Shown in pieces: positions 17,401 through 64,000 of a stretch of DNA of 64,000 bases. The stretch's first letter is position 1. Each line of letters begins with the position of its first letter. The stretch lies in assembly GCA_004764695.1 (NCBI GenBank), contig SMSO01000032.1:6468668-6532667 (forward strand), given 5' to 3'. Origin of the DNA: Schizochytrium sp. TIO01 (Eukaryota; Sar; Bigyra; Thraustochytrida; Thraustochytriidae). Made by a program: the position numbers and the translations under genes. Below the pieces are notes generated by a model that made no database searches, was not told where the DNA came from, and was given only the letters and a program-made list of their open reading frames with translations.

Positions 17401-18236
17401 AGAGCAACCCCATCTTGCAGCATGGGCAGGCTCAGCAAGAGTTTGCTCAGATGCACCACAAGTATGCTGGTGGAGAGGAAGAAGAAGAGGAAGAGGAAGA
17501 AGAGGAAGAGTCCAAGGATGTTATGGAGGCAAAAGAAGACGAAGATTTTTCGAACAGCATCAGCAATGTAGATACGACTAGCACGAAGGAGGACAATACT
17601 GAGATAGTTTATAATGATACTATTGTCCAAAACATGAATGAAGAGATTAACCCTGCCATGGAAGATCTTACTGCCTCTGACGAAGAGCGCTTATCATCCG
17701 AGATGTCACACGCGAGCCAAGCTACTGCACGAACCATCGAACAAGAGATTGAAGAAGCAGAGCCACAGCTCCCAGAGAGACCTGTCAAGAGTGATGGCGA
17801 AATAATTGCAGTTGGGACAGCATCCGAACAACAGCCAAACGAAGAAGAGCAAACGGAGGAGCAGCCTGGGACTTCTACTCAGGAAATCGCATGTGAACAC
17901 ATTGAGAACAAGGCACAAGACAATGAGGACGAAGACCTTAATGTTCGCCCCCCCATCCCCCCCAAGCCTACTGTACTTGAGGAGTGTAAAGAGATCGAGG
18001 ATGAAGCTGCTCAGTTCTCAAGCTCCAGTCCGGAGATAAACAAATCGTCATCGTCCACAAGCGTTTCCTCTTCAAGCTCGAAGAAGAAGAAGCGCAACAA
18101 GCACAAACGCAAGCCGTCGGGAAACCAATCTATGCCCAACAACATTGCTGCCACGACTTCAGTGGCACCTGAACACCACGCTGCTGGTGGAGGATCCTCT
18201 AGCTGGTCCATTTTCTCCCCATTCTCTAGGAAGTAA
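11460..18236 (+). CDS. Kinesin-3-type motor with very long coiled coil and C-terminal PH-like domain
   Basis: One uninterrupted frame of 2258 residues. The N-terminal motor (about 1-430) has the P-loop GQTGSGKT (124-131), switch I NNTSSRSH (260-267) and switch II DLAGSE (297-302). The TLTWLLKPSLGGNSRT and TLRYAQDCSRVINRAIIN segments point to the kinesin-3 (KIF1/Unc104) branch. The loop before IPYRDS, lysine-rich in animal kinesin-3, is instead a Ser/Gly/Thr insertion of about 30 residues (341-372). No FHA domain follows; residues about 435-1830 are almost continuous heptad-type coiled coil. Residues about 1835-1963 look like a PH domain (GRKPHARILCL, LGEIDGVFSG, CFSISTKARTYDL). The tail has a glutamate run (about 2005-2017), a PPIPPKP motif near 2163 and a lysine-rich end. 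Role inferred: plus-end transport of membrane cargo, with the PH-like domain contacting lipid. Its stop overlaps the convergent UPF3 gene. Confidence 0.9.
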   Translation: MDERENSVKVAVRCRPLSEREKERGAVQCVEIEDNQIAIEGGLQSTVSDTASTNGENSNSRCNTPTQFSTPTQRGSGRKRGKRVFNFDFAYGEDSHQETVFDDIGKGVLENAFAGYNASVFAYGQTGSGKTHTMLGSNECGDRQAGLIPRICSSLVEKLGNPDDRADDTALARAASTRYTLEASYLEIYNEKCIDLLTPMDRRPKASQPDEPTNLRVREHPKRGPYVEDLTILPVRSMDDIKRMMHIGAKARTTAATNMNNTSSRSHAIFTLVFTQTNIASDLCSATDTSSKINLVDLAGSERVGASGVQGKHLKEAANINRSLHTLGRVISALSRAKESSNGGRLSIFSTPGSNPGTPQSAGGRASTGGSREVIPYRDSTLTWLLKPSLGGNSRTTMLATISPANYNYEESLTTLRYAQDCSRVINRAIINRDSNNEVIAELRIEIDLLRQRLAVQTETSAQMANLNEELQQHKRAVEIENIESKKLIEKVGQRYLNELKEKETIWERDRKTFEVQCREKAAHITTLEEQLKSLEDDLDTTRRVKEDLEDARDALDAKVREQAEQATKHIEAIKWGEQQLEKRGESLKAREQELQETKQELDQTRQNAAAEKAELEHKLRDNENARESLMIDLDQLRDATAKEKNRLTKNLESISSAKAQLEDELSLSRQDNANLNEKVEHLDAALQDAKARIESLEDERSSLLSTLDEEKASLKRSECQLADLTEKFNQMQSEMQEKMKNLCAQISDLEHTLKETTEAKAELDRNLQEEKKHHQEAISSAEEEQAAKEAKAQELADLQATTNARISELDDNVSQLTSTKAKLESDLSEASQNILDVEEKVAQLSINLENLKQELAEVQTSGKEERSMLQANVDELAQQKSTLEDQVDQLRQSLKQETTRYHEATDESSSRAEAIAELESELASCKDHIQTLEQKREELTNNIANLEQELTGEKTVLAHANETISQRDLTISSLEDQLQATKDELRATQESKSELEATAAQLQSNLDQANENLAEANATVAEKASTIATLESQISTLEESQNQLEIELSEAKETIVVKNNEIEGLEAQVASLEDKSNSLENQLSEANESITNKQSNVISLEDQVGALEEQASSLEDKVAALESEGSALEEKVSLLEKERDGLQDSLESQRQAISNLEIMRDELNTKLNNVSEELTRTQEELTTLQATSAKLEADLQAKTEECVALEEMLTELENSSAERIENLRTESAAKTERINELETAKSELESARDALQGTVDKQVAQLAANLDTIQSHETTISELETCKATLEAESSNKQNTISMRDVTIVELEKNLAETKSSLETELATTRQEASEKQEALSKDKVNLQAKIEACQLEIDELEKAKAEESSKLYDLNAKHEELSIKHTQLEDELANLKSHHEDSLEENKDMAHRISELEATKSSLEDEKLALETDKAQLEESKKGLEERVASLEATKEELEATNLALEQARADADASRDEAQAEMSQLQEEISTEREAMQTRAEELTKAEAAAEELSKTSQERMDTAETLDAEAKKLKEEVDSLKQVCDEEGERQRAKEEELRQLAADTQRREDAIKARIEANQRNARRKCHEEMIFRKETKETMERMTEDHATAIETLKQEHGSTLEETTNAHTEEVERIRFEHQDSIQSIHQEHAEEVGRINEEHATVVHQTRQEHAFEIERLEIEHNEAMESVMQQHKGEMNRLRNEHAESLRKAQEEYEDELAQLQREHQDALEAQRMDFALRKQTLIETNLDLRRQLVEEKECRQREAERYSSLFHKEESEIERQIAQAQAEVQRLHSKLHSARTERQISQDTMKSAEEKLQEREHRLRCEELAAFKQWLVSTGVTLLKFPSTGRKPHARILCLHQTKRGNGSYELIMSKVPSSKRATSGAPVAEKHIRLGEIDGVFSGCTTEIFAQSLAEPIADQCFSISTKARTYDLQCSTRSQRDKLVSGLQMMLEELEVPEKFHTSDMLLAHAVDESNPILQHGQAQQEFAQMHHKYAGGEEEEEEEEEEEESKDVMEAKEDEDFSNSISNVDTTSTKEDNTEIVYNDTIVQNMNEEINPAMEDLTASDEERLSSEMSHASQATARTIEQEIEEAEPQLPERPVKSDGEIIAVGTASEQQPNEEEQTEEQPGTSTQEIACEHIENKAQDNEDEDLNVRPPIPPKPTVLEECKEIEDEAAQFSSSSPEINKSSSSTSVSSSSSKKKKRNKHKRKPSGNQSMPNNIAATTSVAPEHHAAGGGSSSWSIFSPFSRK

Positions 18237-20472
18237 CTGATTTTTGATTTTTTTGTGAAGCTCCCTCACCACCCTTGACGCTGCTGGCCTTGACGCCCTG
18301 AGTACCAAGACTCGCTGCCTTCTTCGCTCCGCGCTTTCTATTTCGAGAGCTCTTGCTTACCTTTGACGAAGAAGCTGTTGATGCTGCGTCTGTGTTCTTC
18401 TTGGGCACAACTCCAGGAGGAGGGTTTCCAGCTTCCGCACCTCCTGCTGGTTTTCCTTTCTTCTCGATGACTGCAGTTGAAGTAACAGCAGGCTTCTTCT
18501 TTTTGGGTACTCCTCGCTTTCTGGTCTTTGAGGCACCTCCGACACTTTTGGAGTCTTTACCCGAGATTGAAGCAGGTTTGCTAGTGCTAGTGCTACTAAC
18601 AGTAACACCAGCAGCAGCTGCTGCAGCTGCAGCTGCTGCCGCTTTTGCTTTCTTCTGTTTCTTCTTCTCAAGACGTGCCAATTTACGTTTAGAGATCGGT
18701 GGTTTGGTTGTAGATGCAGTTGCCACTGAAGCAGCTTTAGAAGTGTTCCCTGAAGACAGTGCAGAACCTAACATGGATTTCTTCTGCTTCTTTTGCTTTT
18801 TCAGGAGCCTCTTCTTGGTCTTTTTGGCTTGCTCTGCGAGTAAAAAGCGCAAAAGTGCAGATTCCTCCTGAACAGGTGCTTCTTTGTTGATGTTATCCCC
18901 TTCTGAGGCCAATCCGCCAGAAATAGGTGCTGACGACTGCAAACCTGAAGATGTCTTAGTAGGTGCCGTTGGCGGTTGAGCTGGGCTAGTGATTGCCTCC
19001 CCTGTAGTAGTCTCAGTCAGCGGAAGTGGCCGTCTACCCCCAAGTGCAATAAATGCCTTAAACTCAGGATCGGCCTCTAGCGTGCCACTCACAGGAGTAG
19101 GAAACTTGCGTTGCTTGCTTGTAAGACCACGCCGATTGAGTGCTAGCTGACAAGTGCAAGATACCTTAGCATACCCTTCATCACCCTCCGATAATTTAGC
19201 CTTGGCAAATAACCCAGCCAGCTCTTCAGTGCGCTTCTTTGCGCTGTCTATGTCGTCCTGCGCAGGTTCACCCTCCTGTCTAGCGCCGCTAGCAGCTGCA
19301 GAAGCATCGTTATTGTTGTCGTCCAAGGCGGAGTCTTCTTGATTTTGTGCAGACACGGCTTCATCGTCCTTGTCGTTGCTTTCTCCATGAGCCGCTAGAG
19401 GCTTGGCAAGGAAATTGTGGCCATCCAATATGCGGCAGAACGAAGTTGCCTTTTGTTCGTCCTCAAAACTTAAGAAAGCAGCTGCAGGTCGCTCTACAGA
19501 GGCCTTACCAGGCACGAACATGACCAGGTCATATTCTAGGCGATCACCCTCTTTGACATTTTGCAGACGTTGGTCCAGCTGCTGTAAAAATTGCGATGCA
19601 TCCTGAAAGCACGCCGGTAATCTCCGCACTGCAACTTTAACACGAGGGAAGATTCCGGTGAGACCTCCGAGACGACGAGAGCCTTTTGTAGAGTCTTTTC
19701 CATTTGCCATGCGCTCCTTTATCTTCTTTAAGAGCTTCTTCTTCTTCTTGAGCTTCTTGAGCTTGTTTTTCTTTTTCTTCTTTGCTGCTGCCGTGAGGTC
19801 CGCAGCACTGCTTCCACCAGTGGTTGCTTCTCCTGCACTTGCTTTGCCACGCCTTCTGCGTCTTCTAGACTCTTTACGAGCCAACTTTGCCTTCATTTTA
19901 GCGCTCAGTGTTGCTCCTGAAGCTACAGATCCTGTTGCAGCTTGCGATGCTCCTCCTTCGCTGGCCTTAGTTTTAGCTGTTTTCCTCCGTTGTCTTCGGT
20001 TCGGCTTGGAGCTTTCGGTAGCATTCTTAGCGGGCTCCATGTTGGGACTTTTCGCTGTAGCTTTAGAAGTTGTGGGTTTTCTGATTTCTTCATTTCCTAC
20101 GTCCGTTTTGGAATTATCACCGCCATTTTTGGCCTTGTTTGCGGAACTATTATGGACGTTGCCGCTGTTCTTGGCGACGTTCTTGGCGCCGTTCTTGGCG
20201 CCGCTGCCACTGCTCTTAGCGCCATTCGTGGCCTGTGACGATGCTTGCTGAGCTTGTGCTGAGGTATCCTTCGCACCCCGTCTTCCCCTCGAGCGATGTC
20301 TCCCTCCGCCCTTGCTCGTGCCTACGTCGCCTCCGTTTGCCGCCGCAGAGGATGCCTTTGGTGCGCCTTGGGGCTGAGGTTTGCCATTTCCGCGCGCGTC
20401 GGACCCGCCAGAGGGCTTGCTTCCGGAACTTGCGCCACCTCCAGACGAGGTCTGCGCATCTCCCCCGCCCAT
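18226..20472 (-). CDS. UPF3: UPF3/Smg4 nonsense-mediated decay factor
   Basis: An intronless 748-residue protein from the ATG at 20472. Residues 1-265 are low-complexity Gly/Ser/Ala/Lys sequence with a poly-lysine stretch (about 231-250). The UPF3 RRM-like domain starts at about 277 (VKVAVRRLPA) and includes AAAFLSFEDEQKATSFCRILDG. An acidic insertion (about 362-432) interrupts it before YAKVSCTCQLALNRR, and the diagnostic GTLEADPEFKAFI follows at 463-475, equivalent to the TIDDDPEY segment of known UPF3 proteins. ESALLRFLLAEQ near 530-545 matches the helix after that motif. The tail is again basic low complexity. UPF3 bridges UPF2 and the exon-junction complex in NMD; the EJC-binding C-terminal motif is not recognisable. 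The CDS overlaps the kinesin CDS by 11 bases tail to tail. Confidence 0.8.
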   Translation of the reverse strand: MGGGDAQTSSGGGASSGSKPSGGSDARGNGKPQPQGAPKASSAAANGGDVGTSKGGGRHRSRGRRGAKDTSAQAQQASSQATNGAKSSGSGAKNGAKNVAKNSGNVHNSSANKAKNGGDNSKTDVGNEEIRKPTTSKATAKSPNMEPAKNATESSKPNRRQRRKTAKTKASEGGASQAATGSVASGATLSAKMKAKLARKESRRRRRRGKASAGEATTGGSSAADLTAAAKKKKKNKLKKLKKKKKLLKKIKERMANGKDSTKGSRRLGGLTGIFPRVKVAVRRLPACFQDASQFLQQLDQRLQNVKEGDRLEYDLVMFVPGKASVERPAAAFLSFEDEQKATSFCRILDGHNFLAKPLAAHGESNDKDDEAVSAQNQEDSALDDNNNDASAAASGARQEGEPAQDDIDSAKKRTEELAGLFAKAKLSEGDEGYAKVSCTCQLALNRRGLTSKQRKFPTPVSGTLEADPEFKAFIALGGRRPLPLTETTTGEAITSPAQPPTAPTKTSSGLQSSAPISGGLASEGDNINKEAPVQEESALLRFLLAEQAKKTKKRLLKKQKKQKKSMLGSALSSGNTSKAASVATASTTKPPISKRKLARLEKKKQKKAKAAAAAAAAAAAGVTVSSTSTSKPASISGKDSKSVGGASKTRKRGVPKKKKPAVTSTAVIEKKGKPAGGAEAGNPPPGVVPKKNTDAASTASSSKVSKSSRNRKRGAKKAASLGTQGVKASSVKGGEGASQKNQKSVTS

Positions 20473-26910: not shown

Positions 26911-29900
26911 ATGGTGAGCATTTCAGAGGTGGCTGTGACCCGCTCGTGCAAGAACATTGAGCATGCCACCGTGTACAAGTCTGCGCCTTGGAAGCGCACT
27001 TCAATCATTGCCTTTGCTGTGGTGCTCTATGCCATCGTTTTGCCGTACGCATGGAATACAATGGGCGAACCACGCCGACGTGCTGTGATGGAGGTAGAGG
27101 CGCTTGAGCAAAAGAAAATGCACGAAGAAGAGCTCGAGCTCGAGGCCAGCGACGGTGAGGTGACGCTCTCATTTGGGGATGATGAGGATGAGGGTGGTGT
27201 CATCTCGTTTGGTGAAGATGAAGGCGAGGACGAGGATGAGGTCGTCGCTGTGAACTCTGCTATTATTGCTGACGAGAATGCCAAGGAGAAGAACTCTTCG
27301 TCTGAAGTCGATGACGATGAGGAGGAAGAGGAAGAGCGGCCCTTGCCATCTCCCTACTTGCCAGATGCTGGTGCAGTGGCAGCGTTGTTTAGTCTGTTGA
27401 CCGTGACAGTTCTTTTCCACCTGATGTGCCATTGGTTGGTGAAGTTCCACGCCCTCATGTACTTTGTTCCCTCAGATAAGATTTCGGAGGGAAGCGTAAT
27501 CTTTGTACTGCCTTACGCATATCGTGGAAAGCCTGAATTAGTTTATGTAAAGCGCGATAAGGTTTCGCAAAACCTTACCATCGAGTTTCAACGTCAGCGC
27601 TTTGAGCTTATGAAGGAAGGCGTGGAACTTGGCCAGGTGAAGTTGATGGGCTTGTCTGAAACTTCGGAGCGTGTCGACAGCGATGACGAGGAGATTCTGT
27701 TGCAAAAGCTTAGCGCCGAAGAGCGAGAGGCGTGTGAGCGCCAGACCAAGGATGCAATTGCTCGCCACGGCGTCTTCTGCCCAGTTATGGCACCTGTTGA
27801 TGGCCCTCTATCCATGTATGTTGAGTCGCGGGGACTACACAATGATTCAAAGGTAACTCATCAGCGTGAGCGCTATGGTATGAACCGCCTTGAGATGGAG
27901 CCCAAGACGTTGCCTGATTTGGTCAAGGAGCAGCTTATTTCGCCCTTGGCAATTTTCCAGTTTTTCTCGGCTGGTCTGTGGCTCATGGACGAGTACTGGC
28001 AATACACGGTATTCAACATTATGACAATCATTATGATGGAAGGTATGACCGCATTTCAGCGCTTTCGTACGCTCAAAACCCTCAAAGGCTTGGCACCGAA
28101 ACCCTATGAGCTTCCTGTCTATCGTGGCGGCCGCTGGATTGAGGTGAAGACTACAGAGTTGCTCCCAGGAGACTTGATTTCTCTTAGTTCCTCCTCGCAC
28201 TCTGTCGCCGTCGATGCAGTCGCCAAGAAAGGGCCTACAAACAAAGATGCTGAGGATGCAGCCAAGAAGTCAGCGGAGGAAGCAGCAAAAGCTCGTCGCC
28301 GTGGTACGGATGCTGTTCCTTGTGATTGTGTGATTCTCCACGGTAGCGCTGTTGTGAACGAAGCTACATTGACAGGTGAATCTGTACCGCAGATGAAGGA
28401 TGCTCTTAAATCTACAAGTAACGCAAATCTGTCAGCCAAGCTTGACCTGCAGGGCCGTGACCGTGTGCACGTGCTCTTCTCTGGAACTACCATTATCTCC
28501 TCGACACCGGGCGACAACGATGATAAGAGTTTCCCCACTGCACCTGATGGCGGGTGCCTTTGCTACGTTCTGCGCACTGGTTTCGGTTCTTCTCAAGGAG
28601 AGCTGATGCAGATGATTGAGTTTTCTACGGAGTCCGTGTCCGCTGATTCCAAGGAAACTGGCATTGCCTTGCTTATTCTTCTCTGCTTTGCTTTGGTCAG
28701 TGCTGGCTATGTTTTCAAGAGGGGCATGGAGAAAGGTGACCGCACGACTCACGAGCTTTTGCTTAAGTGTGTGATCATTCTTACCAGCGTTGTTCCACGT
28801 CAGCTTCCTGTACAGATGGCTATGGCTGTAAACCATGCTCTTATTACCTTGATGCGCGAGGGAGTATTTTGCACAGAGCCATACCGTGTTCCTTACTCTG
28901 GAAAGATCACCCACTGCCTCTTTGACAAGACCGGAACTCTCACCACTGATGAGCTAGTGCCAGTGGGTGTTGTGAATGGCAATGACACGCGGGTTGGTAA
29001 CTACAAGCCCAGTGACGACGTGAAGACGATTCTCGTTCCTGTTCGTGAAGCGAGTAAAGATGCTACTATGGTTCTTGCTGCCTGCCATTCCCTGGTTGCC
29101 ATGCCTGAGACTGCAGCTGACAAGAATGCCAAGAAGGCTGGTATTCCTGAACTTTTGGGCGATCCGATCGAGTTGGCTGGAATGAAAGGCGTGGAATGGG
29201 GCTTTGACCCCAAGACTCAGCGGGCTACCCCGGGTGGCTACCAAGTGATGGAGCTTGGTCTGGCGAAGCTGCAAGAAACTCTTCGCAACCAAGAAACTTC
29301 TCTTACTACTCCAGCACAAGGTCAGACCGCACCCCCAGCTGGTGCCGCCAAGGATGCAATTGCCGATGAGATCAAATCTACTCGCCAGAAGATTGAAAAG
29401 CTTAAGGAGAACATTCAAGCTGCTAAGACTCGGGCAGCCCAGAGCTCTCTACAGTGCATTAAGATTCTTGAGCGCTTTCACTTTTCTTCGAAGTTGCAGC
29501 GCATGAGCGTCATTTGTAAACTCCAGTCGAAGGGTTCAAGTGAGTTGAGCCGCGCCCCATACTGCTTGGTGAAGGGATCTCCTGAAGCTATCTCTAAGCT
29601 TCTTCGCGAGGGTGGCAAGCCGGAGTGGTACCGTGCAACCTACCGCCGCCTTGCGGAGGCCGGCATGCGTGTCTTGGCTCTTGCGTACAAGAAGTGTGAC
29701 GAAGATGTTGATGTGTCTAGCTTATCGCGTGACGAGGCTGAGAAGGACCTCGAGTTTGCAGGATTTATTGCGTTCGAGTGCAAGACCCGCGGAGACTCAG
29801 CAATTGTTATTCGCTCTCTCCGTGAAGCTGACCACCGCGTGGCAATGCTGACCGGCGATGCACCTCTTACGGCTCTTCATGTTGCACGTATCACTAACAT

Positions 29901-31824
29901 TTGTGGTGACCCGCAGCGTCGTGACAACCCACCTCTCCTTCTCACTGAGCACCCCGACCATAGTATTGAGTGGGTCGGCGCCGTTGGTGACGAGGATGAG
30001 GCAGTGCACATTGCATTCGACGCGGCCAAGGTACCGGAGTTGAGTGAGAAACACGATCTTTTGACCACAGAAGATGCCATGCTGGCTGCTGTGCATCAGA
30101 GCCAGGGCTTGCTCTGGAAGTATGTGGATCGCATTCAAGTTTTCGCGCGTATGTCTCCTCAAGGTAAGGCCAAGGTGATTCGCATGATTCAGCAATTCCA
30201 GGAAACGGACAAGAACCTGGAGACTACAAGTTTCGTACCGTCTAACCAGACCAAGTTCGTTTTGATGTGTGGTGATGGCGGTAACGATGTGGGTGCTCTT
30301 AAGCAAGCTGACGCAGGTCTTGCGCTGCTTTCGGGCTATGGAAATGCCAATACAGCTGACGGTGATATTGAAGAAGGCGATGGCACTACGAGTTCTGAGG
30401 AGCAGCTGAATGAGCGTGCTAACGAGTTGAAGGTTCGCTCTAAACAACTGGCAAAGGAGCGCAAGGTTGAGCTTGACCGTAAGAAGAAGGAGATCCAGTC
30501 GAAACAGCGCGAATGGATGGAAGAGGAAGTCCGTAAGGCTGAAGCTCGTGGTGAGACCGGCCTGTCTGTTCAGTGGAATGCTGTCAAGAACACTACTGCC
30601 CGTCTTCGCGACGAGTTGAGGAAAGAAACCGAGATCATCAACCGCAAGTACAATGTTCACATGCAAAACTCTAATAGCGAAGATAAGGATCCTACAGAGC
30701 TTGCTTTGGAAGCTCTTGATGACCCGAATGCTCTGCCCGTCGTGCGTCCTGGTGATGCTTCCGTTGCTGCACCCTTCACATCCCGTGTCCCGTCCATCAG
30801 TAGTGCGATCCAACTAATCCGCCAGGGTCGCTGTACACTTCTTAGCGCATTGCAGCAACAGCAGATCATGTGCTTGGAAAGCGTGATCAATGCCTACTGC
30901 TTAGCTGCTCTATCTTTGGAGGGCGCCCGCTCCTCAGAGCGGCAAATGATGGCCTCAAGCTGGCTTCTGATGTCTGCCTCCATTGCCTTTTCTTACTCCA
31001 CTCCAATCGAGAAGATGCACCCTGTTCGCCCGATTCGGTCGCTGTTCCATCCTGCAATTGCAATTAGTATTTTGGGTCAAGCTGCGATCCACTTGTTCTG
31101 TATGAACATGGCTGTCACGCTGGCAAAGGATGCCATGGGCGAAGAAAAACTGCAAGAGGTTATCCGTTTCAACCGTCGTGTTTCCCGTGGTCTTGAGAAA
31201 CAGCTTGAGGATTCCGATAACACTCTTGATGCTATGGCTGATTTTATGCTGATGTGGCAGACCCCTTTTATGCCCAACCTGATGAATACTGTCATCTTCC
31301 TTGTGGAGACCTCTCAGATCATGGCTGTGTTGTTTGTTGGCTATAAGGGCCGTCCTTGGATGCTTGGTCTTTTGGAAAACACCGCGCTTTCTTTGTCTCT
31401 GTTTCTGAGCATTGGCTGCCTCATTTTTGCTGCTTGGGAAGTAAGCCCAACGATCAACCGTCTTATCCACCTTCATCCATTCCCTGACGATGAGTTCCGC
31501 TACAAAATTGTTGGTCTTGTGATGACAACTTTGTTTGGAACCTTTGCATGGGATCGTTTGGTGACAGCAATTTTTGCTCCCAAGGTGTTCGGTGCAATGG
31601 TGCAGCAAGCCCGTGAAACTACCCCCGCAGACTTTGCACCCATGGTAAAGACGCTTATCAAGGTTGCTGGTGGCTTCGTTCTTGTAGGAACTGGTAATCC
31701 GATTGTGTGGGCAGGAGCCTACTGGGCGTACAGGAAGTACCAAGGTGCCATGGAGGCTCGCGAGGTTGCTGATGTTGAGGCAAAGGCTGCTGAGCGAAAG
31801 AAGCTCAAGGCTGCAGCTAAGTAA
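26911..31824 (+). CDS. ATP13A1: P5A-type P-type ATPase (Spf1/ATP13A1 family)
   Basis: An intronless 1637-residue membrane ATPase, longer than the usual 1200 or so. Two N-terminal hydrophobic segments flank a very acidic insertion (about 75-148) carrying a partly repeated LSFGDDEDE / ISFGEDEGE motif. The actuator has TGES (488-491). The phosphorylation site DKTGT has its aspartate at 672. GDGGND (1121-1126) is the hinge motif, followed by VGALKQADAGLALLSG, which is P5A-like. After a charged helical insertion (about 1155-1215), RPGDASVAAPFTS and IRQGRCTLLSALQ match the P5A C-terminal region, and the last membrane segments follow. The M4 motif reads VVPRQLP where P5A enzymes usually have PPELP. 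The family sits in the ER membrane and removes mislocalised tail-anchored or signal-bearing helices. This is almost certainly the single P5A gene of the organism. Confidence 0.93.
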   Translation: MVSISEVAVTRSCKNIEHATVYKSAPWKRTSIIAFAVVLYAIVLPYAWNTMGEPRRRAVMEVEALEQKKMHEEELELEASDGEVTLSFGDDEDEGGVISFGEDEGEDEDEVVAVNSAIIADENAKEKNSSSEVDDDEEEEEERPLPSPYLPDAGAVAALFSLLTVTVLFHLMCHWLVKFHALMYFVPSDKISEGSVIFVLPYAYRGKPELVYVKRDKVSQNLTIEFQRQRFELMKEGVELGQVKLMGLSETSERVDSDDEEILLQKLSAEEREACERQTKDAIARHGVFCPVMAPVDGPLSMYVESRGLHNDSKVTHQRERYGMNRLEMEPKTLPDLVKEQLISPLAIFQFFSAGLWLMDEYWQYTVFNIMTIIMMEGMTAFQRFRTLKTLKGLAPKPYELPVYRGGRWIEVKTTELLPGDLISLSSSSHSVAVDAVAKKGPTNKDAEDAAKKSAEEAAKARRRGTDAVPCDCVILHGSAVVNEATLTGESVPQMKDALKSTSNANLSAKLDLQGRDRVHVLFSGTTIISSTPGDNDDKSFPTAPDGGCLCYVLRTGFGSSQGELMQMIEFSTESVSADSKETGIALLILLCFALVSAGYVFKRGMEKGDRTTHELLLKCVIILTSVVPRQLPVQMAMAVNHALITLMREGVFCTEPYRVPYSGKITHCLFDKTGTLTTDELVPVGVVNGNDTRVGNYKPSDDVKTILVPVREASKDATMVLAACHSLVAMPETAADKNAKKAGIPELLGDPIELAGMKGVEWGFDPKTQRATPGGYQVMELGLAKLQETLRNQETSLTTPAQGQTAPPAGAAKDAIADEIKSTRQKIEKLKENIQAAKTRAAQSSLQCIKILERFHFSSKLQRMSVICKLQSKGSSELSRAPYCLVKGSPEAISKLLREGGKPEWYRATYRRLAEAGMRVLALAYKKCDEDVDVSSLSRDEAEKDLEFAGFIAFECKTRGDSAIVIRSLREADHRVAMLTGDAPLTALHVARITNICGDPQRRDNPPLLLTEHPDHSIEWVGAVGDEDEAVHIAFDAAKVPELSEKHDLLTTEDAMLAAVHQSQGLLWKYVDRIQVFARMSPQGKAKVIRMIQQFQETDKNLETTSFVPSNQTKFVLMCGDGGNDVGALKQADAGLALLSGYGNANTADGDIEEGDGTTSSEEQLNERANELKVRSKQLAKERKVELDRKKKEIQSKQREWMEEEVRKAEARGETGLSVQWNAVKNTTARLRDELRKETEIINRKYNVHMQNSNSEDKDPTELALEALDDPNALPVVRPGDASVAAPFTSRVPSISSAIQLIRQGRCTLLSALQQQQIMCLESVINAYCLAALSLEGARSSERQMMASSWLLMSASIAFSYSTPIEKMHPVRPIRSLFHPAIAISILGQAAIHLFCMNMAVTLAKDAMGEEKLQEVIRFNRRVSRGLEKQLEDSDNTLDAMADFMLMWQTPFMPNLMNTVIFLVETSQIMAVLFVGYKGRPWMLGLLENTALSLSLFLSIGCLIFAAWEVSPTINRLIHLHPFPDDEFRYKIVGLVMTTLFGTFAWDRLVTAIFAPKVFGAMVQQARETTPADFAPMVKTLIKVAGGFVLVGTGNPIVWAGAYWAYRKYQGAMEAREVADVEAKAAERKKLKAAAK

Positions 31825-32844: not shown

Positions 32845-35800
32845 TCAGGCCAAGTATACATGGCATTTACGCTCAATATGAGTGCGACAGATGGGGCATT
32901 GATTCAGATCGTTAGCACAGGTTTCGCAGCAAGAAATGTGATTACACGGCTGAAAGAGCATCTTGCGATCATTATCCTGGCACACAACGCAAAGGAGGGA
33001 GCCCCCGCTCTCCCCTTGCTGATGGTAGGCCGCTGGAATAGGCTCCCCAGAGCGAGCATTAGGAGGCATGCTGCCATTGCGTACTGCCCCAGTTCCGGCT
33101 GGAGGCATACCCGACCGTGATACTGGTGGCATAGATTGATTGGGGCCTAAGTGGCCACCACCTCCGACCGTTGCTACGCCAGCAGGGCCACGAACACCTT
33201 CGGTAGCAAAAGAGACGTTCACTTTTGCATCTGGAGAATGATTTCCTTCGTAGACGACTTTAGTTGAGCTAAGCAACGGCGATTTATTAGATTGCAGAGG
33301 TTTGTGAGGCGAGTTGTTCGACATGCCAAGCTTATCTTGTGGCCCACCTTGGCCCTTGAGAGGGCTGGGCGGCATGTTTCCCGGAGGCCCCGACATGGGT
33401 CCGTCATCCAAGCCCTCCATAGTCTTGCGACGCTTCATTTCTACAACCGATGGTTGTTGATCCATGGCAGGGCGTTTGCCTCCTGAACATACGCTCGCAG
33501 GTGTTTTGCGACCGCTCATGTCGTGCATACCATCGTCCATAGTGAGGTCAACAGCGCTGGCACGGGAGCTGGAAGCAGCCCCGCTGGAATGCCGCCGCAT
33601 ACTAGCAGGTGGCAATGATGGGTCTCCATGGCCATGGGACGAGTATGATCCAGGGGGTGGTGTCGGTCTACCTGAGTTATCATAAGGTCCTCCACGGTGC
33701 ATAGCATAACCAGATGGATGGCTACTGTATCCATTTGGTGGAGGGCGAGCTTGGGGTTCTCCAGACCACGAGGACGACGGATGCTCGCCGTAGCGCGGGT
33801 TGCCAGAGTTCCCTGGCCGCGTGCTACCCGAGGCGTTTGAGTATCCAGAGTGACTAGGTCCACCGTAATCCCCGCCACTTCCACTTCCACCACTACCACT
33901 GCTTGGTCCACGATAGCTATTGTAAGGTACTGGAGCGTAAGGATCATGCGACGACTCCTGAGACCCACCGTGGCTGGCATAACCTGAGTGGGAAGGAGGT
34001 CCTCTGCTGCCGCCTTGAGAAATTCCAGCACCACCAGAACCAGGACCAGGACCTGGGTGGGAGGAGTATGAAGGATGAGGGCGTCCATCGCTACCACCGG
34101 GAGGGCCGCTGCTTCCTCCAGGGTGTGAGGATGAAGGGTATCCTCCGCCTGAAGGGTGGGGCTGACCAGGACCACCAGGTGCGCTCGACTTGCGTCGCTG
34201 GCGGCTGTAGCTCGTAAGCTTCATGTAAATGAGACAGTGTTTGCAATCGGGAGCGCACGGGATCTTGAAGCCTTCTGTACTTTGGAGTTGGCGTTGATGT
34301 ACAACAGATGGTTTAACTGTGCGGCACATGGGTTCTACACAGTTCGGGTCCTTGCATTTGCATGCATGGTTCCAAATTTCAATAGACTGAGCAAGCTTTT
34401 GTCTATCTGTAGCACTGCGCTGTTGCTGTTGTTGTTGTTGATGATGCTGCATCTGGTGCTGCTGTTGTGGCTGGTGGGGCGGTTGCTGATGAGGCGGTTG
34501 CTGGCGGTGGTGGGGATGCTGCTGTTGCTGCTGCTGGTGAGGTTGTCCTGACCCCCCTTGAGAATGCGGTTGCGAAGGTACACGCTGAGCTTGGGGGCGC
34601 ATCGCCGAAGGATGCTGAGGTTGAGCCCCGGGATGACCACGTGGCATTCCGCGAGGTCCAGGCGGGCCACCATTGCTGCCCATACCACTGCTACTGTAAT
34701 GGCTTGGGTGCTGTGATCCCCCAGCACCCGGTCCTCCCATAGGCCTGCCTCCTGCAGGGGGCTGTTGGTGTTGTTGCGGGTGATGTTGAGAATGGTGCTG
34801 CGGATGTTGTTGCTGTGGGTGTTGCGATTGCTGATGAGGCGTTCCGTAGCCCGAAGGAGGCCCTCCATGCTGCGACGAAGAAGGGCCGGATCCATAAGAC
34901 TGCGAATGGTCAGCACCGTCACGGTACGACGAAGAGCTCGTACGTGCCATGGGATTTGGGGTTCCACCACTACCAACCGAGCCGGGACCGCCAGAAGGCA
35001 TTCCAGGTCCAGGACGAGGCCCCGGCTGCGCAACTCTTGATGGCTGCAAAGGCGGGGATGAGGTAGGCGGTCCTCCGTTTGGGCCAGGACCAGAAGCATT
35101 AGGGCCTCCGCCATAGGGGACACGTCTGTCGCGCAGCTTATTGAGAGCAAACTTGACATGTTCAACTCCACAAATGGACTGAAGCTCATGTATAAGTTGG
35201 CGTGATTGGTTGCGAGATATCTTTTGACGCTCCTCCACAGACACATCAAGCTTCTGTAGCTGTTGCTGTCTCCGCTCATGGTCCTGAGTGATGTTGTTGA
35301 TTTCTGCATGACGGTCATGGGGGGTGACCTCAAGGAGGTTTCGTCTCAAGAAGTCAATATTATCTCTGCGGCCATCAGGATGCGCTTCTGGAGGGTGGTG
35401 TCCACCAGGGGGGGCATTCGAAGGAGGTCCTCCTCCACCGTTGCCAGCTGGAGCACCCGGGTGACCAGAGCTGACACCTGGAGCAGCTGAATTGCCGCCG
35501 TATGCAGAAGACGAAGTAGGTGCAGGACCTGTAGGGTATCCACCTCCGTAGCCTTGTTGTTGTTGTTGTGATTGATGGGGTGGAGGTGGTTGGTGTTGCA
35601 TACGCGGGTGGTGGCCATAAGAAGGATGGTGGGGTGGTTGTGATTGCTGCTGCTGCGGTCTATGATGTTGTGGTTGCTGTTGATGGTGATGTTGAGCCTG
35701 TTGAGAGCTTGGGGGCGGTTGCTGAGGATGCCCTCCGTGGGAGGAAGACTGTGATGGGGGACCACGCATATGCTGCGGCTGTTGTGCAGACGAGGGTGGG

Positions 35801-38800
35801 TGGCCATGTGGAGGATATCCACTGCTTGAGCTAGGTCCAGGGCGACCATGGTACTGTCCAGGAGGAGGAGGACCACTTGGACTTGCATTGGAGGGAGGGC
35901 CCGACGGATGCCGTGCAGGATGACCTTGTTGAGAAGGCGGACGTGATCCCATGTGTTGTTGTTGTTGCTGCTGCTGCTGCTGTGCATGTGGATGAGCTCG
36001 AGGCGGGCGCCCGTGATGCTGCTGTTGATAATGATACGAATCCGGGTAACCGCTTGAGGATGACGGGGGAGGGCCATTAGGCCCCCCTGCTCCTCCAGCG
36101 GTTGATCCAGCATCTGACATATTACTGCTGCTGGGTCCAGGTCCTGATGAAGACCCGTGTGAAGCATATGGTCCTGAGGATGATGAATAAGGATCATTGT
36201 AATACTGTTGTTGCTGCTGCTGCTGCTGCTGCGAAGAAGGATTGCCACTGCTACCACCAGGCCCACCAGGTCCAGAGCTGCTGCTTCCATTGCCTACGCT
36301 TGGGTTACTATTGTTGCTGCTTCCATTGCCATTACCGTTGTCTATACTTGGGTTATTGTTGTTGCTATTGCTGTTATACTGCGAGGCAGGCGGATATTGT
36401 GATGATGAAGACGGGTACTGCGAGGAAGGTGGCGCTCCATACGCACCTCCGTTGCTTCCTCCTGGCGGCGGCCCTGAAGTCGATGACGAGGGGGGAGGCG
36501 GGCGATTATATTTGCTGTAGTTGGGCGAAGGAGAGTATCCACTGCTGCTACCACTGGGGCCCGGGGGTCCGCCAGGAGGAGGGGCTCCAGAGCGCATAGC
36601 CGCAGGGTTGCCTTGTGCATGTGAAGGGGGTGGGTATGCTCCTCCCGGTGGTCCCGAGGGCGGTCTCGCTCCAGGATAAGGTCCAGGTCGAGACTGTTGT
36701 CCGGGAGCAGAATGGGATCTACTGTTAGGAGGTCCAGAGCTCGCGTCAGGTGGGCGTGTGTATGAGGGTTGGGGTCCTCCTGCTGAAGAGCCGGGTCCAG
36801 TGTTGCTGTTACTGCCATTGTTGTTGTTACCAACGCTGTTGGGTCCTGCAGAAGTCGAGGAAGACGATGGTTCTGATGCAGCAGACTGTGGCGGTTTTGT
36901 TGCCGGCATAGACGGCGTCCTCTGCTGCTGCTGCTGAGGCGGGGTCGAGGACGCTGGTCCTGAGGATTGCCGCTGTTGTTGCTGTGAGTTAGGTACAGAT
37001 GAAGATGGGTACGCCGAAGACGCCGATCCACTTGATGAAGACGGAGGCTGCGAAGAAACTTGTGGCGGAGCAGGTGGCTGCTGCGAGGCTGACGAGGGGG
37101 GTGTAGACTGTTGCTTTGCTTGCTGAGCTCTTGCTGCAGCGGCCGTTGTGGCCGAAGTCAAGCTTGACGGTCCCGATGAGGCACTGGGACCCGTTGAAGT
37201 CGAGGGCGGTGGTTGTCCCATCATAGATGGTGGTACCGTCGTTCTACCCACGTACGAAGCGTACGTTGAGGGTCCAGTTTGGTCCTTGCTGGCCGGATAA
37301 GCACGGCTGTGAATAGGGATTGGCTGTGGGTGTTGCACTGCTGCTGCCGCCGCTCTTGCCTGTTGCTGTTGTATCATGCGTGCGGTGGGTTGCTGCGGTT
37401 GTGCGCCGGCCTTGTGCTGCGCAAGTAACTGGTGCCTTGGCGAAGATTCTTTGTGTGGGGGAATGCGGTGTTGCTGCTGCGGTTGTGTTCCTGATCCCTG
37501 GGACTCTGCCTTGACGCCTGCCTCTGCTTTCATCTGCGCTGCCGTTGGCCTTCCTGCCATGCTTCTCGGCATGACGACGGATGCTGGTTGCGGCACCGCT
37601 TGCTGTTTGGCATTAGTCTCTGCTTTGACCTTGGACTTTTTCTGTTTCTTCGCGGTGGGTGCTGTGCCAATGGGGTCTGTTGCCTCCTGTTTGGTTTGCG
37701 TCTTGTTGCCCTTGGCCTTCTTTTTCTTCGTCGATCCTGCCGCTGCTGACGTTCCTGCTGCTGCTGCTGCTGCCACCGCCGCTCCGCCGATGTTTTCTGT
37801 CTTGACGGGCGAGGTTTGTCTCGAGTCGCTAAGATCAGCGGGGTCCAAAGATGAAAAGGACGAAAAGGACGAGAAGGTATTCTTTGAGTACGAGACTGCG
37901 GACTTGTTTGATGCTCCGCTACGCTGACTGGGGGTGCGTTCAAATGCACGATTTGTATTTGCTTTCCTCGAGTTCTTGGTTGTTTTTGTCGTCGGCGGCG
38001 CTGTCGTTGACGGTGCTGTTGTCGTTGGACCGGCAGAGGAGCTAGGTGGCATGCCCATTGAGGGTCCTCCTTGAGGCGGAACTGCAGGTCCCGAGGAGGA
38101 GGATGAGTTGAGCCCAGCGTTTCCTAGTCCTGTTCCAGTAGTATGATTGTTGCTGCTGTTGGTGTTATTTGCCGCGGATGGAGGCGCCGAAGAAGATGAT
38201 GGAGGCTGCCCACCGGAAGAGAGTGAAGGCGTGGGGTCTATGGCGCCTCCGGGTGGATCATCGAGAGGTATGTTGAAAATCTCGTCATCCTCGGGTATGT
38301 CTGCGAAGAAGTCGTCGTCAAGAAAGTTTGAGGAGTCGCTGGAGTTACCAAATGAGCGCAAGCCCGAGTCCTGCGCGGGGTCTTTGAGCGACAAGCTCGC
38401 AGCACCCGTGCCTGAATTTGCCGAGTTCGGTGCGGCACCCGAGGAGTTTGGCGCAGCTCCTGTTGCTCCAGAGCCTTGTTGCTGCTTGATGGCCTGGATG
38501 AACTTTTGCACCTTTTTCCTGTGGCCCCAGCGCGCAGGATTGCTCGTCCTCCGCTTGACCCAGCTGGAGAAGGAAGACTTGGGCACATCCATCCGCTCTG
38601 CTGCAGCTGCAAGCGAGAGGGAATGATCGAGGATGTACCTGAGGACATCTCGGATGAGAAGGTCGCTCTCGCTTTTGTACTGCTCCTCGAGGTTATTCAT
38701 CGAGTCGCTTGACTTGGCCCTTCGCAGAGGTGCTGCTGCTCCTGCTGCTCCTCCTCCTCCTCCTGTTGCTGCCCTTCCGCTGCTGCTGTTGTTGTCACCT

Positions 38801-38892
38801 ACACCGGACGTCGTTGAGCTCGAGCTTGATGCTGGTGGTGGCAGGAAAATTTCCTCGTCGTCCGTGAAAAGGCTGTCTGTGAAACTGTCCAT
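32845..38892 (-). CDS. Giant low-complexity protein with HTH-like, TAZ-like and C-terminal RING domains
   Basis: An intronless 2015-residue protein from the ATG at 38892. Most is Ser/Gly/Pro/Gln-rich and probably disordered, with two poly-Gln runs. Four ordered parts stand out. (1) Residues about 75-136 form a helix-turn-helix-like segment (LAAAAERMDVPKSSFSSWVKRR), similar in style to Pipsqueak/CENP-B DNA-binding motifs. (2) Residues about 1174-1256 are a charged helical segment (NIDFLRRNLLEV to FALNKLRDRR). (3) Residues about 1496-1566 resemble a short TAZ zinc finger: HACKC, CVEPMCRTVK, then CAPDCKHCLIYMK. (4) Residues 1966-2015 are a C3HC4 RING with Cys1968, 1971, 1983, His1985, Cys1989, 1992, 1999 and 2002, ending CHVYLA as in dimeric C-terminal RINGs. 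Two acidic-aromatic motifs (DDEEIF near 11-16 and EDDEIF near 204-209) look like activation segments. Inferred role: a nuclear regulator that binds DNA and directs ubiquitination. No named family covers the whole. Confidence 0.8.
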   Translation of the reverse strand: MDSFTDSLFTDDEEIFLPPPASSSSSTTSGVGDNNSSSGRAATGGGGGAAGAAAPLRRAKSSDSMNNLEEQYKSESDLLIRDVLRYILDHSLSLAAAAERMDVPKSSFSSWVKRRTSNPARWGHRKKVQKFIQAIKQQQGSGATGAAPNSSGAAPNSANSGTGAASLSLKDPAQDSGLRSFGNSSDSSNFLDDDFFADIPEDDEIFNIPLDDPPGGAIDPTPSLSSGGQPPSSSSAPPSAANNTNSSNNHTTGTGLGNAGLNSSSSSGPAVPPQGGPSMGMPPSSSAGPTTTAPSTTAPPTTKTTKNSRKANTNRAFERTPSQRSGASNKSAVSYSKNTFSSFSSFSSLDPADLSDSRQTSPVKTENIGGAAVAAAAAAGTSAAAGSTKKKKAKGNKTQTKQEATDPIGTAPTAKKQKKSKVKAETNAKQQAVPQPASVVMPRSMAGRPTAAQMKAEAGVKAESQGSGTQPQQQHRIPPHKESSPRHQLLAQHKAGAQPQQPTARMIQQQQARAAAAAVQHPQPIPIHSRAYPASKDQTGPSTYASYVGRTTVPPSMMGQPPPSTSTGPSASSGPSSLTSATTAAAARAQQAKQQSTPPSSASQQPPAPPQVSSQPPSSSSGSASSAYPSSSVPNSQQQQRQSSGPASSTPPQQQQQRTPSMPATKPPQSAASEPSSSSTSAGPNSVGNNNNGSNSNTGPGSSAGGPQPSYTRPPDASSGPPNSRSHSAPGQQSRPGPYPGARPPSGPPGGAYPPPSHAQGNPAAMRSGAPPPGGPPGPSGSSSGYSPSPNYSKYNRPPPPSSSTSGPPPGGSNGGAYGAPPSSQYPSSSSQYPPASQYNSNSNNNNPSIDNGNGNGSSNNSNPSVGNGSSSSGPGGPGGSSGNPSSQQQQQQQQQYYNDPYSSSSGPYASHGSSSGPGPSSSNMSDAGSTAGGAGGPNGPPPSSSSGYPDSYHYQQQHHGRPPRAHPHAQQQQQQQQQHMGSRPPSQQGHPARHPSGPPSNASPSGPPPPGQYHGRPGPSSSSGYPPHGHPPSSAQQPQHMRGPPSQSSSHGGHPQQPPPSSQQAQHHHQQQPQHHRPQQQQSQPPHHPSYGHHPRMQHQPPPPHQSQQQQQGYGGGYPTGPAPTSSSAYGGNSAAPGVSSGHPGAPAGNGGGGPPSNAPPGGHHPPEAHPDGRRDNIDFLRRNLLEVTPHDRHAEINNITQDHERRQQQLQKLDVSVEERQKISRNQSRQLIHELQSICGVEHVKFALNKLRDRRVPYGGGPNASGPGPNGGPPTSSPPLQPSRVAQPGPRPGPGMPSGGPGSVGSGGTPNPMARTSSSSYRDGADHSQSYGSGPSSSQHGGPPSGYGTPHQQSQHPQQQHPQHHSQHHPQQHQQPPAGGRPMGGPGAGGSQHPSHYSSSGMGSNGGPPGPRGMPRGHPGAQPQHPSAMRPQAQRVPSQPHSQGGSGQPHQQQQQQHPHHRQQPPHQQPPHQPQQQHQMQHHQQQQQQQRSATDRQKLAQSIEIWNHACKCKDPNCVEPMCRTVKPSVVHQRQLQSTEGFKIPCAPDCKHCLIYMKLTSYSRQRRKSSAPGGPGQPHPSGGGYPSSSHPGGSSGPPGGSDGRPHPSYSSHPGPGPGSGGAGISQGGSRGPPSHSGYASHGGSQESSHDPYAPVPYNSYRGPSSGSGGSGSGGDYGGPSHSGYSNASGSTRPGNSGNPRYGEHPSSSWSGEPQARPPPNGYSSHPSGYAMHRGGPYDNSGRPTPPPGSYSSHGHGDPSLPPASMRRHSSGAASSSRASAVDLTMDDGMHDMSGRKTPASVCSGGKRPAMDQQPSVVEMKRRKTMEGLDDGPMSGPPGNMPPSPLKGQGGPQDKLGMSNNSPHKPLQSNKSPLLSSTKVVYEGNHSPDAKVNVSFATEGVRGPAGVATVGGGGHLGPNQSMPPVSRSGMPPAGTGAVRNGSMPPNARSGEPIPAAYHQQGESGGSLLCVVCQDNDRKMLFQPCNHISCCETCANDLNQCPICRTHIERKCHVYLA

Positions 38893-39260
38893 TCTCGACA
38901 GCCTCTTCTGCTCCAGACCCGCCTTCGTCTTCCTCGCCTGAGAGTCCGTCTTCGCCTGCTGCCGCGGACTCCTCTGAGCCCGCCCTTTCTTCTCCTGTTG
39001 CTTGCTTGCTTGTTATCTATCACTTAGTCGCGCAGGCAAAAGAAATACAAAGAGGAGAATTAAATGGGGAATAAAAGGGGAAAGAAAAGTACAGTGGCAA
39101 CTTCTCCCCGTGGTCGAGCAGCTAGCTCTGCGTTGACGTCCTCGCACAACAGATGGACAACGTCGGAGAGCAACAATCAATCTCAGAGAGCACAGAAGAA
39201 ATAAAACAGCGAAGAAGAAGACCTAGAAGACCTAGAAGACCTAGATGAGGGTGAGGGAGA
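38893..39260. promoter_or_regulatory. Probable 5' UTR and proximal promoter of the RING protein gene
   Basis: GC-poor A-rich stretches and a three-copy 9-base tandem (GAAGACCTA) at about 39218-39245 lie directly upstream of the ATG at 38892. Placement as 5' UTR/promoter is by position only; no core element is convincing. Confidence 0.3.
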
Positions 39261-39524
39261 GCAAGGATTTGCTTCAAGCCGCCGAGAACGAAGGCCTCTG
39301 CGCTCTAACAAGGTGGCGCTCGGTCGCTCGGTCGCTCGCTCGCTCGCCAAGGCTGGCTGCGGCCCTACGGGCGCGTGGGCACCGGGGAGGCCGCACGAGG
39401 CGGTCCACGCCGCCTAGCTTTCTCTCTTCGCCTTCCTACCTTGCTAGCTGTCTCTCCGCCAGCCTCTCTACCCGTTTGTCCACGCCGAGTCTCGCCGCTG
39501 GACGAGGATGGATGGACTTGGCCT

Positions 39525-39668
39525 TGCCTGCCTGCCTGCCTGCCTGCTTGCTGACCTGCCTGCCTGCCTCCGTGCTTCACGGGGGACGGGCGGGCGGCGG
39601 AGGGCGGGCGGCTGTCTGGGAAGGCGGGCGGCTGCGGCCTCGCTTGCCTGCCTGCCTGCCTCCTGCCT
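39525..39668. repeat. CCTG-type microsatellites, two tracts
   Basis: GCCT/CCTG units repeat at about 39525-39569 and again at about 39643-39668, with GC-rich sequence between. They lie some 650 bases upstream of the RING protein start. Confidence 0.85.
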
Positions 39669-39772
39669 CGCTGCCGGCGGCGGAGAGGCGGGATGCGGCT
39701 GTGGATGGCGGGATGGACCAGATCGGGAGCGAAGGAGAAGAAGAAGAAAGTAAACAACAGAGCAATGAAGAA

Positions 39773-39808
39773 AACAAACAACAACAAACAACAACAACAA
39801 CAAACAAT
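39773..39808. repeat. CAA trinucleotide repeat
   Basis: AACAACAAACAACAACAAC-type sequence, slightly imperfect, about 36 bases. Confidence 0.85.
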
Positions 39809-40046
39809 CAGAGAGCACGGGAAGGAAGACCCGGGCCAGGCGGCGCCGCGGGCAGGGAGGACGGGCCGGCGGCCTGAGGAGCGGGCGGGCGGCGGGCTGG
39901 CTGGCTGGCCTGCCTTCGCTCGCTTACCTGCTTGCTTCCTTGCTGAGTATGCCGCCGCCTCTGCGGAGGATGCTGCTGACTGAGCCTGGGCGCGAGATCG
40001 TGCTCGTCGCGCGAGCCCTCCTCCCGCGCGCCTTCTTTAGCTTATT

Positions 40047-40088
40047 GAGCTCCTTTCTTTTCCTTCTTTTCTTCCCCTTCTTTTCAAG

Positions 40089-40120
<32 letters not shown>

Positions 40121-40260
40121 TTCCTTCTTTCTTTCTTTCTTTCTTTCTTTTCCTTCTTTCCTTCTTTTCCTTTCTTTTCCTTTCTTTTATTTCTTCTCAA
40201 GTCTTTCTTTTCCTTTCTTTTATTTCCTTTCAAGTCTTTCTTTTATTTATTCTCCTCCTT
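40047..40260. repeat. Long pyrimidine tract (TTTC/TTTTC)
   Basis: More than 200 bases of almost pure pyrimidine on the plus strand, built on TTTC units. A CAAGTCTTTCTTT phrase recurs three times inside it, suggesting internal duplication. Mirror-symmetric homopyrimidine of this kind can form triplex DNA. Confidence 0.9.
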
Positions 40261-62838: not shown

Positions 62839-64000
62839 TTAAACCTCAACATCAAAAGTGTTGAACATTTGCTCCCAAAGTTTAGAAAGACGCTTACGTG
62901 CAGATTCTGATGACATGCGAAGACCAAGTTGCTCAGCAAGACTTCCCAGAGCTTCAACACTTTTAATGTTGACCCCTGCTGCAACTGCTTTACGAACAAT
63001 TTTTTTCAATTCTGCCCATTGTCCTTCGCGGCCTCCCGATTTATTTTCTTCGGTGAAAGAGGTGCCTACAACCTTATCAAATGGGTAGCATTCTGTAAGA
63101 AATGGGTGAAGAAGAGCCTCACTCGCTGTAATTCGATGCTGCGGATCCTTTTGTAGGCACTTGGACACTAAATCACATAGACCTTCGCTAAATTTGCCTT
63201 TTGACAAGCAGGGTGGGTCTTGCTCGCTAATGGCCTGAACAAGGCCCCAATAACCTTGCTCATCATACTCTGTTTGAAATGGGTAGCTACCGACAGCACA
63301 GACTAAAGCTGACAACCCCACTGACCATAAATCAGCAGGATAAGAATAACCCTCGTCATCACCTGTAATACGTTCTGGAGCCATATAAGAAAGAGATCCA
63401 ACAAAGGTGTTTGCCGCAGATAAAGAGCCAAAGGAGTGTGCAATTCCAAAATCACTCAGCTTTACCATCCCTGAACGGTGAGAAATAAGCATGTTTGCAG
63501 GTTTAATGTCTCGATGGAGCTGGCGCAGTCCGTGAAGGTGGCGCAGTCCACGAAGAACACAATGAAGCATGCATGCAATTTCACGTTCCTCCAAAGGTCC
63601 ATGGGCACTGAGGCGATCCTCAACAGAGCCACCACCCATCCACTCTAGTACCAAATTAATCGTTGATTCATCTCGATCAACAAAGGCATTGTGCATTCCC
63701 AGAATATAAGGACACGTTCGGGGAAATGTAGCATCTGAAGAAGCCAAAGGAACAAGATGGTTCCTATAGAGAGCTTTAATCTCAGACACAGTTTGGGCAC
63801 GTTTATTATCGTCAAACACAGGAACCACCTTGACTGCAACAAGTCGCAAAGTATACCGATGCAGAGCCTTGTAGACTACTCCGCTGGCGCCTTTACCTAC
63901 CCGATTAAGAAGAACAAGCGCATCACCCTGGATCGGATCACCTTCAACGGCATCCAAACCATGTTTGTTGGCCGTATTTGACGCTGCTAGCACGCGTAGG
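62839..64000 (-). CDS. MAP kinase kinase-like protein kinase, 5' end beyond the window
   Basis: The frame is open from the right edge to the stop at 62839, at least 384 codons, and has no ATG before the kinase domain, so the start lies outside the window or behind an intron. The kinase domain has the glycine loop GKGASGVVYKA, the lysine in VAVKVV, catalytic HRDIKPANML, the DFG triplet and the YMAPERI motif typical of STE7/MAP2K enzymes. The activation loop SLSAANTFVG aligns with the SMANS phosphorylation site of MEK1, giving Ser and Thr as likely targets of an upstream MAP3K. About 70 helical residues follow the domain, ending in MFNTFDVEV. It should act in a cytosolic MAPK cascade; the partner kinases are not in this window. 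A STE20-like kinase is the alternative. Confidence 0.85.
   Translation of the reverse strand, partial: LRVLAASNTANKHGLDAVEGDPIQGDALVLLNRVGKGASGVVYKALHRYTLRLVAVKVVPVFDDNKRAQTVSEIKALYRNHLVPLASSDATFPRTCPYILGMHNAFVDRDESTINLVLEWMGGGSVEDRLSAHGPLEEREIACMLHCVLRGLRHLHGLRQLHRDIKPANMLISHRSGMVKLSDFGIAHSFGSLSAANTFVGSLSYMAPERITGDDEGYSYPADLWSVGLSALVCAVGSYPFQTEYDEQGYWGLVQAISEQDPPCLSKGKFSEGLCDLVSKCLQKDPQHRITASEALLHPFLTECYPFDKVVGTSFTEENKSGGREGQWAELKKIVRKAVAAGVNIKSVEALGSLAEQLGLRMSSESARKRLSKLWEQMFNTFDVEV

Follow-up and report, generated by a model that had tools for sequence, protein, structure and literature searches.

The open reading frame and its RING

The window analysed here is a stretch of 64,000 nucleotides from contig SMSO01000032.1 of the thraustochytrid Schizochytrium sp. 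TIO01, in which a minus-strand open reading frame (ORF) encodes a protein of 2015 amino acids carrying a predicted helix-turn-helix (HTH) segment, a short relative of the TAZ domain and a C-terminal RING (Table 1). A chain in which an HTH-type fold is joined to a TAZ relative and to a RING tip suggests a gene regulator that could target its own partners for destruction. The ORF runs from ATG to TGA in one open frame, while the same DNA contains 20 and 77 stops in the other two minus-strand frames and 72, 80 and 60 on the opposite strand. Stops are present in the ORF's own frame upstream of the ATG, and a search within it for the 5' splice patterns GTRAGT and GTATGT gave one match.

Most of the chain is of low complexity, and four longer stretches are distinct in composition by eye (residues ~64-142, 1174-1257, 1492-1572 and 1960-2015). 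The three linkers comprise 1033, 233 and 392 residues with a Gln/Ser/Gly/Pro/Asn/His content of 64-82%. The TAZ-like module contains seven of the 18 Cys residues and the RING with its tail nine; the remaining two are C1241 and C1802. A preliminary description, made from the sequence alone, had proposed a multi-part protein of this length, and its components are present: the ORF, DDEEIF at residue 11, EDDEIF at residue 201, a RING above its cut-off and the TAZ- and HTH-like pieces. It put the Gln/Ser/Gly/Pro linker at about 1300 residues, which is too short, and overlooked the further ordered-looking stretch at ~1174-1257.

The RING is matched by Pfam zf-C3HC4_3 (PF13920) at 49.7 bits in the full protein (E 3.2e-13; cut-off 27) and at E 1.8e-15 in the RING piece alone, and all of its zinc ligands are kept (C1968, C1971, C1983, H1985, C1988 or C1989, C1992, C1999 and C2002). 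It matches 34 distinct PDB sequences at E <= 0.001, the best being MYLIP (3e-11), BIRC3/cIAP2 (1.3e-9), BIRC2/cIAP1 (1.8e-9) and XIAP (1e-8). The MYLIP alignment reaches the final residues, with HVYL in both proteins and the window chain ending in VYLA. RINGs of the MYLIP/IAP sort act as dimers via the C-terminal tail; by its position and hydrophobic tail the window RING is of this C-terminal dimer type, with ligase activity and dimerization predicted, and the earlier view of a complete RING of the dimeric E3 kind is borne out at the sequence level by the alignment through the tail. The likeness to the C-terminal RINGs of MYLIP (IDOL) and cIAP/XIAP spans RING and tail (E 3e-11 to 3e-8), although those proteins carry FERM or BIR domains where the window protein has TAZ-like and HTH-like segments. 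The RING by itself is ordinary, since other C-terminal RINGs occur in this genome: PF13920 has 42 matches there including the window RING, 37 of them over the cut-off, and in two other ORFs that were examined the RING is likewise C-terminal.

A relative of the TAZ domain with two putative zinc sites

The TAZ-like module has only two HCCC sets of putative zinc ligands, H1509-C1513-C1518-C1523 and H1532-C1546-C1550-C1553, after which no Cys occurs until C1802. The zf-TAZ family (PF02135) has three HCCC zinc sites, and the short TAZ-like Cys/His module of the preliminary description is upheld as a TAZ relative with two zinc sites, not three. PF02135 matches the piece alone at 22.8 bits (E 1.3e-4), slightly below the gathering cut-off of 25; TAZ is not listed at E <= 5 in a Pfam scan of the full-length protein, nor is the window ORF at E <= 0.001 in a six-frame TAZ search of the genome. 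None of five shuffled pieces in which every Cys and His was held fixed matched TAZ. A PDB sequence search with the piece gave p300 TAZ2 as best match (E 0.001), and p300 or CBP accounted for 15 of 15 matches at E <= 10.

A template-free model of the module has three helices joined by HCCC zinc loops. The first 15 matches to it from VIA are all CBP/p300 TAZ domains and the first 11 from Foldseek are TAZ2, so by this model the module has the TAZ fold, and the structural match on which its identification had been made to depend was found, with CBP/p300 TAZ leading. PDB titles of the matching structures name complexes with STAT1, p53, HIF-1alpha and C/EBPepsilon. The two structure models, of this module and of the HTH segment, were built from one and two sequences. 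The module resembles TAZ1/TAZ2 of CBP/p300 (PF02135) in its predicted helices and HCCC zinc loops and in its best sequence and structure matches; it differs in having two zinc sites instead of three, and in the first Cys of site 2, which is displaced to 14 residues after the His.

The window's own genome (64.06 Mb, 37 contigs, searched in six frames) encodes a paralogue of 556 aa (G000 C13:1579688-1581358; L021:2189-3859, minus), whose TAZ-like module is 34% identical to that of the window and is found in both directions (E 1.0e-5 and 8.5e-6). The pair has a Smith-Waterman score of 99, whereas shuffles average 27.5 and 0 of 2000 score as well. All eight putative ligands (six Cys, two His) are retained, which at only 34% identity argues for selection. 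The paralogue has two short TAZ-like modules, each with only two HCCC sites by eye, followed by an acidic Asp/Glu run, which makes it another protein of the two-zinc TAZ type, and the whole protein scores 25.5 bits against PF02135 over two stretches. It thus shares with the window protein a TAZ-like module and a weakly similar module upstream, and differs by the second TAZ-like module, with which the window module showed no significant alignment (364 of 2000 shuffles scored as well). The paralogue has no match to a RING or HTH. In profile-profile comparison the TAZ pair matches the TAZ2-type set of this genome with a probability of 63.8 over 41 columns, and the TAZ1-type set with 82.8 over 37 columns with one zinc module out of register; the comparison supports TAZ kinship at the level of sequence profiles, not the register. 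Against the PDB the two-sequence profile gave a best E of 0.085, poorer than the window piece alone.

Nine PF02135 matches exceed the cut-off in the six frames of the genome, the window ORF not among them, and they fall in three CBP/p300-like genes, one two-TAZ protein and one single-TAZ protein. Each CBP/p300-like gene has KAT11, a bromodomain, PHD and two TAZ domains, with ZZ over the cut-off in two. TAZ domains seem, from these sequence matches, to have spread into other proteins of this genome. In L003:496-1905 and L005:1462-2442 (minus), both smaller ORFs, TAZ is the sole Pfam domain over the cut-off (two stretches in one ORF, a single stretch in the other), with no CBP-type partners in frame. 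Two of the CBP/p300-like genes, L022 and L023, lie ~10 kb apart on one contig (G000 C13:635000-660400) and the third, L024, is on C35; the L022 gene is split over overlapping frames (621-4721 and 4513-7266), which points to an intron or frameshift within it.

None of the remaining 41 PF13920 matches lies within 180 kb of the nine TAZ matches or the paralogue (by eye; the nearest, on C35, is ~187 kb away). CBP/p300 have an internal RING-like domain, which is absent from the Pfam matches listed for the three CBP-like genes, and since PF13920 was the family searched, the absence of a second case in this genome applies to RINGs of the C-terminal type. To this extent the earlier remark that no family joins these domains stands for the genome. 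Searches of an open-access full-text library did not find the combination, and neither TAZ, nor labyrinthulids, nor any word beginning with RING appears in the main text of PMC4222949. Pattern matches but no confirmed relative came from viral_contigs, scanned with the HTH, the TAZ pair and the helical module, and from genome_contigs, scanned with the HTH and the whole protein; both collections comprise viruses, bacteria and archaea and are silent on protists. The protein is a combination of known modules, so far in one genome.

The predicted helix-turn-helix segment, a possibly helical module and short motifs

Helices are predicted in the HTH segment at residues 67-89, 94-100, 105-115 and 125-139. 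Searched alone, it is matched by nine Pfam models at E 0.0025-0.15, led by HTH_23 (0.0025), HTH_28 (0.0045) and HTH_psq (0.012), all below their cut-offs, and by two NCBIfam models far below theirs; HTH matches from three libraries (Pfam, NCBIfam and PHROG) cover overlapping residues. None of five shuffled HTH pieces matched an HTH model, and in the shuffle control as a whole, HTH and TAZ pieces together, three of ten gave unrelated matches (E 0.05-0.13). An AlphaFold2 model has helices and a turn, with a predicted local distance difference test (pLDDT) score of ~80 at model residues 21-50 and a mean of 66. Most among the 50 Foldseek matches shown are DNA-binding HTH regulators, none of them significant; the proposed structural resemblance is thus seen, short of significance, and an HTH fold is predicted for residues 64-142.

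The possibly helical module at 1174-1257 has no Pfam family, with a sub-threshold match only, and its NCBIfam matches are unrelated and sub-threshold. It bears a weak likeness to the paralogue's N-terminus (17 of 2000 shuffles scored as well), and a full-length MAFFT alignment misplaced it. A stretch that looks KIX-like by eye in this genome's CBP-like proteins (KIX_2 in one of them scores 23.4 bits, below the cut-off of 25.6) prompted a KIX relationship to be considered, and it was rejected, as neither Pfam nor the NCBIfam matches support it.

The pattern [DE]4-I-F, observed at residues 11 and 201, occurs in none of 5000 whole-protein shuffles, and the two acidic-aromatic motifs (residues 11-16 and 192-206) flank the HTH on both sides. 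Four psi-K-x-E motifs, which mark SUMO acceptors in nuclear regulators, lie between residues 363 and 463 beside Lys-rich stretches; the mean number in shuffles is 0.11 over the whole chain and 0.08 within residues 341-480, and four were reached in 0 of 5000 either way. As the motifs were picked after reading the sequence, these shuffles overstate the surprise somewhat. The pattern at residues 1806-1823 (KR-x12-KRRK-like) resembles a bipartite nuclear localization signal (NLS). RNF4-like SUMO-targeted ubiquitin ligases have several SUMO-interaction motifs before the RING, and here a single imperfect VDLT was found; of two stricter patterns, one had LLEVT at 1186, distant from the RING, as its sole match and the other had none, and VDLT, which fails both, was rejected as evidence of SUMO interaction.

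Table 1. Features of the 2015-residue ORF, with positions in the window
Feature	Position	Strand	Basis
Whole ORF, 2015 aa	32845..38892	-	Single open frame
Acidic-aromatic motif 1, DDEEIF, residues 11-16	38845..38862	-	Sequence pattern, shuffles
Predicted helix-turn-helix segment, residues 64-142	38467..38703	-	Sub-cut-off Pfam and NCBIfam matches, PHROG matches, AlphaFold2 model, structural neighbours
Acidic-aromatic motif 2, DDDFFADIPEDDEIF, residues 192-206	38275..38319	-	Sequence pattern, shuffles
Cluster of four psi-K-x-E, residues 363, 422, 454, 460	37504..37806	-	Pattern and shuffles
Ordered-looking, possibly helical module, residues 1174-1257	35122..35373	-	Composition, weak paralogue likeness
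Two-zinc TAZ-like module, residues 1492-1570	34183..34419	-	Sequence and structure comparison
VDLTMD, SUMO-interaction-like, residues 1781-1786	33535..33552	-	Pattern; fails two stricter ones
Bipartite NLS-like stretch, KRPAMDQQPSVVEMKRRK, residues 1806-1823	33424..33477	-	Pattern match only
C-terminal C3HC4 RING and short hydrophobic tail ending VYLA, residues 1964-2015	32848..33003	-	Pfam, PDB sequences

Interpretation, known systems and surroundings

A chain that combines an HTH with nuclear signals is most simply read as a regulator at DNA that gathers activators, and we tentatively favour the view that the protein is a nuclear, DNA-associated adaptor with its own predicted RING-type ubiquitin ligase. 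The N-terminal HTH would contact DNA, and the two-zinc TAZ, on long flexible linkers, would grip acidic-aromatic activation segments, either in other factors or in its own N-terminus, as suggested by the binding of other factors' activation segments by CBP/p300 TAZ domains. The RING at the C-terminus, which is of the dimeric kind, would recruit an E2 and ubiquitinate the gripped partner or its own chain, the tethering of a TAZ relative to a RING placing activation segments beside the ubiquitin-loaded E2. Ubiquitination might then limit the time a promoter stays on by shortening the lifetime of the activators or of the protein itself, and the four SUMO-acceptor motifs may add control by SUMO. 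A full one-chain 'use and destroy' control, in which the protein captures activators at the promoter and ubiquitinates them there, with linker SUMO as a switch, is a more speculative and rather unlikely elaboration. The preliminary description had proposed a transcription factor that carries its own ubiquitin ligase and forms condensates; all three proposals are still inferences. The coupling of activator potency to activator destruction is usually split among several proteins; one chain that unites a fold of this DNA-binding type with a TAZ relative and a RING would make it testable in one molecule, and a stable two-zinc TAZ, if true, would indicate how small a part of the TAZ fold is sufficient.

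The known systems nearest to this arrangement differ from it in their other domains. CBP/p300 coactivators carry KAT11, bromodomain, PHD and ZZ, none of which Pfam lists at E <= 5 for the full window protein; the same library detects KAT11, bromodomain and PHD in the three CBP-like genes of this genome. In plant BTB-TAZ proteins TAZ likewise stands in a ubiquitin-ligase context, through cullin 3, whereas the window protein has its ligase module, a RING, within its own chain, and the scan at E <= 5 lists no BTB domain. The RING-like domain of p300/CBP is internal and that of the window protein is C-terminal and of the dimer type. The two would be alike as TAZ-bearing adaptors with a ligase function, which is predicted here and reported for p300/CBP in PMC4381250 as E4 ubiquitin-ligase activity towards p53. 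The K-Rta (RTA) of KSHV is similarly a regulator with its own ligase activity, described in PMC10055789 as intrinsic to this transcription activator and in PMC3749962 as SUMO-targeted; it is viral, and the comparison is drawn from these papers, not from sequence. Both p300/CBP and RTA are precedents for parts of the favoured reading.

It is possible, if less probable, that the protein is an adaptor ubiquitin ligase that does not bind DNA, comparable in its working to other C-terminal RING ligases with substrate-binding domains. The HTH would then serve protein-protein contacts, and the RING would ubiquitinate a substrate selected by the TAZ-like and helical modules. The RING is the only unquestionable catalytic-type module, further C-terminal RING proteins exist in this genome and the HTH evidence is weak; but the acidic-aromatic motifs, the SUMO-motif cluster and the NLS-like stretch indicate the nucleus and transcription, and the HTH matches of three libraries fall on overlapping residues.

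A SUMO-targeted ubiquitin ligase, recruited by sumoylated partners, or by its own SUMO cluster in a second copy, which it then ubiquitinates, is improbable. Four psi-K-x-E motifs, a C-terminal RING and one VDLT ~185 residues ahead of it are in keeping with such an enzyme, and a transcription activator with such activity is reported, the herpesvirus protein K-Rta (PMC3749962), yet the single SUMO-interaction-like motif is imperfect, the stricter patterns find none near the RING, and acceptor motifs imply a SUMO substrate, not a reader. Equally doubtful is lineage-specific domain shuffling in a genome rich in Q/S/G/P linkers that has left at least one module degenerate, such as an inactive RING or a TAZ-like module that losing zinc site 3 has weakened: the missing third site, the single copy, the long linkers and the Q-rich linkers of the CBP-like genes in this genome would fit, but a paralogue with just 34% identity preserves all eight putative ligands of the two zinc sites, and the RING retains all of its own. 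That two genes have been read as one open frame, as length and composition might suggest, is very unlikely, given no stop over 2015 codons against 20-80 in the other frames and a paralogue in which, on a weak likeness, the helical module may likewise precede the TAZ-like one.

By family matches the neighbours in the window are ordinary eukaryotic genes among which no functional cluster was seen. They include matches to transportin-3/importin-13 (256-3219, -), tubulin-tyrosine ligase (4206-5594, -), E1-E2 (P-type) ATPase (26911-31824, +) and protein kinase (62839-63993, -). Immediately upstream of the ORF, 39216-40244 is GC-rich (0.615 over 39001-40000) with several short tandem repeats and a pyrimidine-rich array at 40053-40244. 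A kinesin ORF of 2258 aa (11460-18236, +) and a UPF3-like ORF (18226-20472, -) overlap tail-to-tail by 11 bases.

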